DNA from: a virus | Virus record (IMG/VR): IMGVR_UViG_3300025694_000031 | Span: 1 to 25,362 of that record | Direction: 5' to 3' (one strand) | DNA length: 25,362 bases | Shown: piece after piece, positions 948 to 24,845 of the stretch | How positions within the stretch are numbered: the stretch's first letter is position 1 | Layout of the letters: the number at the start of each line of letters is the position of its first letter | Position numbers and translations under genes: made by a program | The notes under the pieces: model-generated | What the model was told of the DNA's origin: nothing | Databases searched by the model: none | What the model saw: the letters and a program-made list of their open reading frames with translations, nothing else

Positions 948-2816
948 ATGAAGTTATATGAAGATTATATTCATCAAAGTAAATACGCACGGTACTTAGA
1001 CGAACAACAACGTAGAGAATCGTGGGATGAAACTGTGTCTAGGTACGTAGATTACTGGGTTGATAAGGGGCTTATAGAAGGGGAGGATATAGCAGACATA
1101 GGTACAGCTATAGCTGACAAGAGAGTCATGCCTTCTATGAGAGCTATGATGACTGCGGGTAAAGCATTAGACCGTGATAATGTAGCGGGATATAACTGTT
1201 CATACTTGCCAGTAGACCACCCTCGCGCCTTTGATGAAGCACTATATATACTGTGTTGTGGTACTGGTGTTGGCTTCTCAGTTGAGCGTAAGTTTACTGA
1301 TAAGTTACCTGAAGTAGCTGAAGAGTTCCAAGATACTGATAGCACTATAGTAGTAGCAGATAGTAAACTAGGTTGGGCTAGTTCATACAAAGAGTTAATA
1401 TCATTATTGTATAATGGTAGAGTACCTACATGGGATACTTCCAAAGTTAGAAAGAAAGGAGAGAGGTTAAAGACCTTTGGTGGTAGAGCTAGTGGTGCTG
1501 AACCTCTGATTGACTTGTTCCAATTCACTACTTATATATTTAAAACAGCCGCAGGGCGAAGGCTAACTCCGTTGGAGTGCCACGACTTGATGTGTAAAGT
1601 AGGAGATATAGTTGTAGTAGGTGGTGTTCGTAGGTCAGCGATGATTAGTTTATCAGACCTAGAAGACAGTCAAATGAGAACAGCTAAGTTTGGTAGATGG
1701 TCGGACGCTAACCCACACAGAGCATTGTCTAATAACTCAGTTTGCTATGAGTCTAAACCTACTATGGAGCAGTTCATGGAAGAATGGAAAGCATTATACA
1801 TGTCACACTCAGGTGAGCGTGGTATATTTTCTCGTGCTGCTGCTAAAAAGCTATCACCTAGTCGTAGAGATACTAACTTTGACTTCGGGACGAACCCTTG
1901 TAGTGAGATAGTTCTGCGTCCAAATCAATTCTGCAATTTAACAGAGGTAATTGTTAGACCAGATGATGATCTTGATTCTCTCAAAGAGAAAGTTAGATTA
2001 GCTACTATACTAGGTACGCTACAGGCTACACTAACAGACTTCAGATACCTACGAGGTATATGGAAGAAGAATACAGAAGAGGAACGCTTACTTGGTGTTA
2101 GTATGACCGGAATAAGTGACCACCCTGTGTTAATGAATGAGAAATCTATAGACCTACCTAGATGGTTGGAGGAACTAAAAGATGTTTCCATTAAGACTAA
2201 TAAGATATGGGCAGATAAGTTGGGTATTCCTGAAAGTACCAGTATTACTTGCGTTAAGCCTAGTGGTACTGTTAGTCAGCTTTGTGATACTGCTAGTGGT
2301 ATCCATCCTCGTTACAATAGCTACTACATTAGACGAGTACGACAAGATAACAAAGACCCTCTGACAAAGTACATGGATAAGACTGGTATACCAAATGAAC
2401 CGTGTTCTATGAAACCAGATACTACTACTGTATTTGAGTTTCCAATGAAAGCTCCTAAAGGAGCGTTGACTAGAACAGATAAGTCTGCGATAGAACAGCT
2501 TGAGCATTGGTTAGTGTATCAAAAGTATTGGTGTGAGCATAAGCCAAGCATAACTGTTTATGTACGTGAGGATGAGTGGATGGAGACAGGTGCATGGGTG
2601 TATAGTCACTTTGATTATATGAGTGGAGTTTCATTCTTACCATTCGACAATGGGTCATACAAACAAGCACCGTACACAGACTGTACAGAAGATGAGTACA
2701 ACGATGCGTTAAAAGCAATGCCAAAAGATATACAATGGAGCAGTATGATTGAGATGGAAGACAACACAACTAGCAGTCAGGAGTTAGCCTGTACTGGAGG
2801 AGCATGTGAACTATGA
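948..2816 (+). CDS. nrdJ: Adenosylcobalamin-dependent class II ribonucleotide reductase (monomeric type)
   Basis: This 622-residue enzyme would reduce ribonucleotides to deoxyribonucleotides for phage DNA synthesis, using vitamin B12 as the radical source. It matches the monomeric Lactobacillus-type RTPR family. C84 (GYNCSYLP) and C329 (QFCNL) would form the active-site disulfide pair. N316-P317-C318-S319-E320 contains the thiyl-radical cysteine C318 and glutamate E320. C615 and C620 (ELACTGGACEL) form the C-terminal shuttle pair. It is shorter than the roughly 740-residue bacterial model enzyme, but every key cysteine is present, so it is probably functional. The Shine-Dalgarno GAAGGAGAT lies at 931-939. 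Because class II enzymes need no oxygen or separate radical subunit, one gene suffices; the host must supply cobalamin. Confidence 0.95.
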   Translation: MKLYEDYIHQSKYARYLDEQQRRESWDETVSRYVDYWVDKGLIEGEDIADIGTAIADKRVMPSMRAMMTAGKALDRDNVAGYNCSYLPVDHPRAFDEALYILCCGTGVGFSVERKFTDKLPEVAEEFQDTDSTIVVADSKLGWASSYKELISLLYNGRVPTWDTSKVRKKGERLKTFGGRASGAEPLIDLFQFTTYIFKTAAGRRLTPLECHDLMCKVGDIVVVGGVRRSAMISLSDLEDSQMRTAKFGRWSDANPHRALSNNSVCYESKPTMEQFMEEWKALYMSHSGERGIFSRAAAKKLSPSRRDTNFDFGTNPCSEIVLRPNQFCNLTEVIVRPDDDLDSLKEKVRLATILGTLQATLTDFRYLRGIWKKNTEEERLLGVSMTGISDHPVLMNEKSIDLPRWLEELKDVSIKTNKIWADKLGIPESTSITCVKPSGTVSQLCDTASGIHPRYNSYYIRRVRQDNKDPLTKYMDKTGIPNEPCSMKPDTTTVFEFPMKAPKGALTRTDKSAIEQLEHWLVYQKYWCEHKPSITVYVREDEWMETGAWVYSHFDYMSGVSFLPFDNGSYKQAPYTDCTEDEYNDALKAMPKDIQWSSMIEMEDNTTSSQELACTGGACEL

Positions 2817-12843: not shown

Positions 12844-13896
12844 TTATGCAGGGACTACGAAAGCCAATGCAGCGTCATCACGCATTTCACCAACACCATA
12901 AAGAGTATCAGCAGTAAATAAATCACCAAGCCATTCTTGCTTGTATTGTGATTGTGTACGTACAGATAGTTGTTCTACGTGAACAAATGCCGATTTGTGC
13001 AGTAACATACCTGCTCGGAATGGAGTATCCGTAGGGCTAGATGAGTTCCAATCAACCGTGTGACCTAGCTCATCTACAAATGAAGCACCAGTAGGAGCAG
13101 AAGCAGTAAAAGTAACAGACTGAGTGCTAGTCTGGTTATTAACATGAATCCACGGACACTGAGTTGAAACATATACAGGTATTCCATATAAGTCACCAAC
13201 TAAACCAGTACGAATTGCATTACCATCAGATAACTCACCAGTAAATGCTTGCTCTGTAAATCGTGAAAGACCTAATAGGTTATTCTTTTCTACAGGAGGT
13301 ATAATAAAATAACGTTCTGACATTGGAACATCAAAATCATCTAATGTCTGAACCATTTTACGAATACCTACATCGGCAAGTGCTGTACCATTACCAGTAC
13401 CTGAACCGGCAGCACCAGAAAAGTTAGTTGATCCATCACTACCTAGTACTGCTTTTTCGTAGGAGTTTGTTGCTCCTGCAATAGAACCACTGTTAACCGA
13501 TGCACCTAGTAATTGTAGATCTTGATCTACTTGTTGAGCAAGTGAATAACCTGCATCATCTGTGTAGAATCTACGATAACTATCTATTGCTTGAGTAGCT
13601 GTAATATCTTCAATCAATCGAGAGTACTCATAGTGTTTGTTTATAGTAACATTAACATCACTTTCTGTGTCAGCAATTAAAGTTACTTGAGTTTGTGCAG
13701 CTTTTAAAGATGCAGCCCCTCTAGTTCCTTTAGGAATGTTTAATGTATCGCCTTTCTTACCACTATGGGATATTTTAGTAACTAAATTAGCTACTACTAA
13801 GTTGCTTTTAAAAGCACCTATAATTTCATCACTCCATATCTCAGGTATAAATTTATCCTGAGTAGTATTAGTGACATGATTTGAACCTAAAGCCAT
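12844..13896 (-). CDS. Major capsid protein
   Basis: A 350-residue protein encoded right after the scaffold gene, as expected for the HK97-fold capsid subunit. Recognisable parts are the N-terminal arm (FIPEIWSDEIIGAFKSNLVV), the segment GDTLNIPKGTRGAASL, the helix around YSLAQQVDQDLQLLGASV, and a C-terminal region with YKQEWLGDLFTADTLYGVGE. The length is normal for T7-like and related podovirus capsids. The start is preceded by GGAGACATATATC. A GC-rich hairpin follows the stop. Confidence 0.85.
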   Translation of the reverse strand: MALGSNHVTNTTQDKFIPEIWSDEIIGAFKSNLVVANLVTKISHSGKKGDTLNIPKGTRGAASLKAAQTQVTLIADTESDVNVTINKHYEYSRLIEDITATQAIDSYRRFYTDDAGYSLAQQVDQDLQLLGASVNSGSIAGATNSYEKAVLGSDGSTNFSGAAGSGTGNGTALADVGIRKMVQTLDDFDVPMSERYFIIPPVEKNNLLGLSRFTEQAFTGELSDGNAIRTGLVGDLYGIPVYVSTQCPWIHVNNQTSTQSVTFTASAPTGASFVDELGHTVDWNSSSPTDTPFRAGMLLHKSAFVHVEQLSVRTQSQYKQEWLGDLFTADTLYGVGEMRDDAALAFVVPA

Positions 13897-23650: not shown

Positions 23651-23722
23651 CTATTTATTGTTAATATACATAGTTACTTCAAATCCAAATCTAATATCTT
23701 CATAGTTTGGTTTATCCCACAT
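23651..23722 (-). CDS. pqqA: PqqA-like peptide (coenzyme PQQ precursor)
   Basis: A 23-codon ORF encodes MWDKPNYEDIRFG followed by FEVTMYINNK. Bacterial PqqA peptides of 23 residues have the same layout (MW-K-P at the start, then LR-G-EVT-Y-NR at the end). The Glu and Tyr joined by the radical-SAM enzyme PqqE are at the same places, E15 and Y19, three residues apart. A strong ribosome binding site (AGAGGAGA, six bases before the ATG) and one-base spacing after the terminase-small-like gene show that it is meant to be translated. No pqqB, C, D or E is in the window, so host enzymes would have to mature it. It is expressed with late structural genes. Confidence 0.85.
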   Translation of the reverse strand: MWDKPNYEDIRFGFEVTMYINNK

Positions 23723-23723
23723 A

Positions 23724-24125
23724 CTAAGTCTCCTCTTCTATTAATTCTGCTTCTATAGTTTCTTGTTGTGTTATCTTAGTACCTTGTACTACAATGGTAA
23801 TGCCAGAATTGCTCTGGCTTGCTGTACCGTCTGATGCCTTTATTGCAGGTAATACCCTGTCCCAAAGTATCTTGAGGCAGGTGGAGTCACCTTCCTCTGC
23901 TAATTCTATTGTCTTGTTTACAATAGGTTGAAACCTATTTAGAACATCTGTCATTATACCATTCTTTGCTGCTTCTTGTAGCAAAGTTAATGTGTTCTTA
24001 CTTCCTTTAGGTCTACCTCCTTTATTACGAGGAGGTTCTGTTAGTCCACTGTTTTGGCTCGGTACTTCCTGTGTACTCTCGTTTGAGCTTTCTATAGAGT
24101 CTTTTATTATCTTTGTCGTAGTCAT
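23724..24125 (-). CDS. AT-hook protein, probable small terminase subunit
   Basis: A 133-residue protein from the ATG at 24125; a TTG two codons upstream is possible. The first 30 residues are Ser/Thr-rich and probably disordered. NKGGRPKGSKN is an AT-hook-like DNA-binding motif, as found at the N-terminus of many phage DNA-recognition proteins. Helices follow (LTLLQEAAKNGIMTDVLNRF, CLKILWDRVLPAIKAS), then a Thr/Glu-rich tail. Position near the head of the late operon and general layout suit the packaging-initiation subunit. The large subunit lies some 5 kb downstream, so the link is inference. Its first 101 bases overlap another small gene in a different frame. Confidence 0.55.
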   Translation of the reverse strand: MTTTKIIKDSIESSNESTQEVPSQNSGLTEPPRNKGGRPKGSKNTLTLLQEAAKNGIMTDVLNRFQPIVNKTIELAEEGDSTCLKILWDRVLPAIKASDGTASQSNSGITIVVQGTKITQQETIEAELIEEET

Positions 24126-24661: not shown

Positions 24662-24697
24662 TACTATTATTATATCATATAATCTAAGCTGTGTCAA
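24662..24697 (-). promoter_or_regulatory. Sigma70-type promoter for the late operon (proximal)
   Basis: On the minus strand, TTGACA (24697-24692) is followed by a 17-base spacer and TATAAT (24674-24669), both perfect consensus. Transcription would start near 24662, about 80 bases before the first late gene. Such a match implies strong use of the host RNA polymerase. Confidence 0.85.
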
Positions 24698-24809: not shown

Positions 24810-24845
24810 TACTATTATTATATCATATATTTAATCAAATGTCAA
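24810..24845 (-). promoter_or_regulatory. Sigma70-type promoter for the late operon (distal)
   Basis: A second perfect TTGACA (24845-24840), 17-base spacer and TATAAT (24822-24817) on the minus strand, 148 bases upstream of the proximal promoter. The start would be near 24810. The two promoters share -10 flanks but have different spacers. Confidence 0.85.

Follow-up and report, generated by a model that had tools for sequence, protein, structure and literature searches.

PqqA is the single-use peptide precursor of PQQ, and one PqqA is consumed per PQQ. Cyanophage psbA is a phage auxiliary metabolic gene. A phage-borne pqqA resembles it in that a gene of the host's main energy pathway is kept under phage control, but PqqA is neither an enzyme nor a reaction-centre protein; it is a ribosomal peptide precursor that is used once and is useless without host enzymes. 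A phage-encoded PqqA was described in the Methylophilaceae phage population VP_266 of Lake Baikal, where it occurs together with a methanol dehydrogenase and was proposed to support PQQ-dependent methanol oxidation (PMC7678222). In a reservoir study of 2026, pqqA, pqqD and pqqE were listed among the viral genes (PMC13188868). With the published VP_266 case, a phage PqqA has a precedent; phage pqqA is a kind of gene already known. The openly searchable literature held no further report of phage pqqA and no infection data on phage PqqA expression, processing or PQQ, and the main texts of the methylophage isolate papers mentioned PQQ, if at all, only as a medium supplement. Measured against this literature, the breadth of viral pqqA, its strict conservation, its occurrence in every methylophage isolate that was checked and its changing placement within the structural unit appear to be new.

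The DNA analysed here, called the window, spans 25,362 bases and constitutes a single IMG/VR virus record. A PqqA should score above the family cut-offs, have Glu15 and Tyr19, and comprise about 22-29 residues with its own start, stop and ribosome binding site. When the minus strand was read from 23722 to 23651, a PqqA of 23 residues was obtained; the plus strand is meaningless there. The peptide scored 46.2 bits with the TIGR02107 profile (E 2.8e-12, curated cut-off 20) and 40.3 bits with the PF08042 profile (E 2.9e-10, curated cut-off 21.1). It shares with the bacterial PqqA of these families the length, the register and the core GFEVTMY, in which Glu15 and Tyr19 lie four residues apart. It differs from them in being encoded by a phage, within a packaging and structural unit and behind promoters of the phage genome. 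No match to the peptide was found in PHROGs or among solved structures. Since the profile scores are joined by conservation in relatives, a chance origin of the reading frame is excluded and, as judged from its sequence, it is a genuine and complete pqqA gene. The translation and both profile searches, which the initial annotation had proposed as a check, thus bear out the 23-residue PqqA with Glu15 and Tyr19 that it had described. The strong ribosome binding site it had claimed was found as GAGGAG, 7 nt before the ATG. Its position for the gene was correct, and the strand, which it had left out, is the minus strand.

Table 1. Location of pqqA and of other features in the window
Feature	Position	Strand	Remarks
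pqqA, 23 aa	23651..23722 (stop included)	-	product MWDKPNYEDIRFGFEVTMYINNK, stop TAG
Shine-Dalgarno sequence of pqqA	23730..23735	-	within the 3' end of the upstream gene
Small-terminase-like gene, 135 aa	23724..24131	-	directly upstream of pqqA with a 1-nt gap; GRPKGSKN motif
Gene of unknown function, 49 aa	23488..23637	-	directly downstream of pqqA
First gene of the leftward unit, 99 aa	24280..24579	-	in the near-identical phage G005, a 41-aa ORF comes next
Major capsid gene	12844..13896	-	in the leftward unit with pqqA
Promoter TTGACA-N14-TGATATAAT	24669..24697	-	0 mismatches to the extended -10 consensus
Second tandem promoter TTGACA-N14-TGATATAAT	24817..24845	-	0 mismatches to the extended -10 consensus
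Six DnaA-box-like elements TGTGGATAA	25075-25295	-	exact copies
Phage ribonucleotide reductase gene	948-2816		rightward unit; phrog_367, E 1.8e-179

The minus strand from 24579 to 3908 includes the genes for the large terminase, the portal, the major capsid protein, a GTA-type holin and an M15 peptidase. The genes for terminase, portal and capsid that share a unit with pqqA, together with a relative that has a terminal repeat (G005, see below), identify the window as a genuine phage genome. GRPKGSKN is a motif common in small terminases. The gene directly upstream of pqqA, which gave a weak DUF5681 match below the cut-off, probably encodes a small terminase, as suggested by this motif and by its position. 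Two tandem promoters head the leftward packaging and structural unit, and pqqA is the third or fourth gene after them (Table 1). They are the only exact matches to the extended -10 promoter in the whole window, and no terminator-like site was found on the minus strand between them and pqqA. Both are present at the same place in G005, and one exact copy heads the corresponding unit in G019, another relative. These promoters would be read by the host sigma-70 polymerase. The initial annotation had placed pqqA in a late structural operon. The structural location is confirmed by the terminase, portal and capsid genes, whereas "late" was a guess from position, and late expression is not established because two perfect extended -10 promoters of the sigma-70 type stand at the head of the unit.

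The DnaA-box-like elements just before the leftward unit all lie on the minus strand within about 220 bases, with 0.38 expected in the whole window. This cluster may be a replication origin or a DnaA-titrating site. A ribonucleotide reductase of the phage is encoded in the rightward unit.

Relatives of the phage were drawn from a portal search that gave 26 viral loci. Three close relatives have contigs that extend to the pqqA locus (L124, L126 and L128); all three keep an intact pqqA there, so that the stops or the loss of Glu15/Tyr19 in related phages, which the initial annotation had named as an argument against the PqqA reading, were not observed in them. L126 lies in G005, which has 37.4 kb and is flanked by direct repeats of about 0.6 kb and is thus near-complete. 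In the more distant G019 (62% portal identity), and in L146 and L147, pqqA instead follows the major capsid gene directly on its downstream side, and a hairpin and a T-run lie between the two. Since the position of pqqA differs among the relatives, the gene has moved, or was gained twice, within one structural unit. The remaining portal relatives gave no pqqA match; most of them are short fragments.

Altogether, pqqA comes next after the major capsid gene in 15 contigs with three capsid families (L044, L048, L074, L078, L095, L096, L100, L110, L094, L102, L077, L028, L140, L146 and L147). Eight of these contigs belong to a single lineage, with capsids 76-92% identical, and in most of the 15 a terminator-like hairpin separates the capsid gene and pqqA, so plain co-transcription of the two is not claimed.

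The distribution of pqqA in viruses was analysed with phage records and with IMG/VR. By tblastn of the phage records, the gene was detected in the Methylophilales phages Venkman, MEP401, MEP402 and MEP301, in four Melnitz records, in the LD28 phage P19250A and in an uncultured podovirus. None of the cultured OM43/LD28 phage types that were checked lacks it. Like the window, Venkman, MEP301, MEP401/402, P19250A and Melnitz have an intact pqqA, whose product has the same core and which in the opened records is not annotated as such, several of them having no gene call there at all. They differ in phage type and in the position of the gene: the pqqA of Venkman stands alone against the neighbouring genes, that of MEP401 heads a unit running into tail genes and that of Melnitz adjoins a tRNA gene. 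VP_266 is a single case, T4-like and with a methanol dehydrogenase (PMC7678222), whereas pqqA was found here across many phage types and no methanol dehydrogenase was found in the relatives G005 and G019.

In IMG/VR, the GFEVTMY pattern occurred in at least 120 viral stretches; the counts from this and the following pattern are lower bounds and do not give the frequency of pqqA among phages as a whole. A second pattern left residues 15 and 19 free, and Glu15 and Tyr19 were present in 122/122 matches listed for it; many of these loci had first been obtained by GFEVTMY, and the fair test of the two residues is the second scan, whose new loci, among the matches listed, likewise retain both. The 122 matches represent 51 different peptides, encoded by 109 different nucleotide sequences, and the codons of the invariant core vary synonymously. 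Of 143 viral pqqA starts, 141 follow a Shine-Dalgarno-like motif; among all ATGs of these contigs, the share is 9.5%. When the regions 5' of stand-alone viral pqqA genes were scanned for promoters, the mean best score was 8.58, hardly above the 8.46 of shuffled sequences, and a general promoter of viral pqqA's own is therefore not claimed. The commonest viral PqqA peptides are identical to Methylophilaceae PqqA over 22 residues, and 26 of the 50 longest pqqA records match one large-terminase family. It is conceivable that pqqA is carried without benefit after being acquired from hosts with many copies, and the numerous and small host genes would make such a capture easy. This is very improbable, however, with the strict conservation amid synonymous drift, the maintenance of the gene in unrelated phage types and its intact state at differing positions in related phages.

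The possible hosts were investigated by searching bacterial genomes with a DNA pattern for this type of PqqA. The matches were mostly in methylotrophs: Methylotenera, Methylophilus, Methylophaga, Methylococcaceae and OM43. Twenty plausible host genomes have 1-9 pqqA copies each, and PqqE was found in 19 of them, in agreement with the PQQ genes that the initial annotation had expected in hosts. In the Methylophilaceae, pqqA was present in 60/60 sampled genomes with a median of 5 copies (range 1-12), 58 genomes having two or more. In the Methylophaga muralis group, 47/57 genomes have pqqA, each with at least two copies; the other 10, some of them perhaps incomplete, gave no match. The PqqA of the window is nearest to gammaproteobacterial PqqA (18/22 identical), and the cultured pqqA carriers infect methylotrophs. 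The host of the window phage is probably a methylotroph as well. When relatives of its portal were searched in a sample of Gammaproteobacteria, one distant match (48%) was obtained, G247:C2:2771-4459 (L300), which may be a clue to the host.

The association with methylotrophs also bears on the idea that PQQ itself, or the peptide with its Glu-Tyr crosslink, has a different function, for example in redox protection or signalling. As far as the sequence goes, PQQ or its intermediates might be used by something other than dehydrogenases, but the viral peptides have no phage-specific residue pattern that deviates from the bacterial family, and we regard such a role as extremely improbable. In a PQQ-producing methylotroph, five pqqA copies were described, three of them outside operons and some strongly expressed (PMC9851590). 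The viral gene resembles these orphan copies, which stand alone without adjoining pqqB-E. The methylotrophs thus add precursor through orphan genes of their own, and the phage copy looks like one more of these.

The viral records were also analysed for the other components of the pathway. PqqE above the cut-off was found in 0/50 of the longest pqqA-carrying viral records, G005 and G019 included. With tblastn, PqqB, C, D or E was detected at 0/146 viral pqqA loci, whereas in the same test 31-53 of 119 bacterial pqqA loci gave PqqB-E matches. Accordingly, none of the viral pqqA loci is a complete PQQ biosynthesis locus with pqqBCDE beside pqqA. The absence of pqqB-E in these viral records and the presence of PqqE in plausible hosts are in line with the predicted dependence of the phage peptide on host PqqB-E.

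A PQQ alcohol dehydrogenase above the cut-off was found in one of the 50 longest pqqA records (G040, the 72-kb record of L043, at 34049-35731), which thereby combines the enzyme with pqqA like the Lake Baikal phages. Matches in Acinetobacter phage MD-2021a were excluded: CAKLQF020000010.1 (L291), where pqqABCDE lies beside ppk, fur and a dipeptidase gene, is bacterial DNA filed as phage.

A pqqA without pqqB-E is compatible with the supply of precursor and also with a decoy. In the latter case, the phage peptide would occupy PqqD/PqqE without being converted, diverting SAM or stopping methanol oxidation, and a substrate-like peptide could indeed compete for PqqD. Against this stand the two crosslinked residues, retained in all of the 122 matches listed, and the commonest viral peptides, which over 22 residues are host PqqA and should be processed alike. 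In addition, the hosts already have many pqqA copies, and the dehydrogenase in one viral record suits an enhancement of the pathway. We therefore consider a decoy quite unlikely.

We consider it likely instead that the lone phage pqqA raises or sustains PQQ through the host PqqB-E for the methanol dehydrogenase. The phage would express additional PqqA substrate, Glu15 and Tyr19 of which would be crosslinked by the host PqqD and PqqE, and host proteases, PqqB and PqqC would complete PQQ. The extra substrate would raise or sustain the PQQ pool, and the PQQ-dependent methanol dehydrogenase, the host's main entry for energy and carbon, would stay charged while virions are made. Because one PqqA is used per PQQ, a lone, strongly expressed pqqA would be the cheapest lever on the pathway. 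Processing by the host enzymes, the rise in PQQ, the advantage that the phage would gain and the methylotroph host of the window phage are all inferred. In favour of precursor supply we count the profile scores, the conservation of Glu15 and Tyr19, the strong ribosome binding site, the position behind consensus promoters, the lack of pqqB-E in the viral records searched, PqqE in plausible hosts and the many pqqA copies of methylotrophs. The presence of pqqA in several cultured methylophage types and its differing position among relatives, in which it yet stays in the structural unit, further support this reading. Engineering results are mixed: in Acetobacter, an increase of pqqAB raised PQQ by 29%, which speaks for precursor supply, but that of pqqABCDE raised it eightfold (PMC7936290), so PqqA was not the main limit in that organism. 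The incomplete identity of the window PqqA to the nearest bacterial PqqA found and the Methylophaga-group genomes without a pqqA match also count against precursor supply.

The strong consensus promoters and the phage's own ribosome binding site would equally suit a mere replacement, in which host pqqA messages are lost in the takeover and the phage copy only holds PQQ at the level of uninfected cells. The PqqB-E enzymes would then persist while the substrate peptide runs out. We regard this as unlikely; it differs from the precursor supply proposed above solely in whether PQQ goes up.

In the bacteria OM43, LD28 and their relatives, methanol oxidation is an important carbon flux of coastal and lake waters. 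Besides the window, pqqA is present in viral contigs numbering well above one hundred, almost always unannotated, and it was missed because gene callers skip genes of 23 codons. This suggests that feeding the methanol oxidation of the host is a common viral strategy. We find it evenly balanced whether a lone, strongly expressed PqqA is a near-universal convergent trait of the phages of PQQ-dependent methylotrophs, repeatedly gained in unrelated lineages, overlooked as too short to annotate, and, in coastal seas and lakes, a main means by which viruses act on methanol oxidation. Cultured phage-host pairs exist with H5P1 and Venkman or Melnitz and with FZCC0133 and MEP401/402. The finding further suggests that PQQ in methylotrophs can be limited by the supply of PqqA and not by that of the enzymes, which agrees with the many pqqA copies of these bacteria. 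If it is true that methylophages routinely bring PqqA, infection would be a direct lever on the methanol-oxidation flux.
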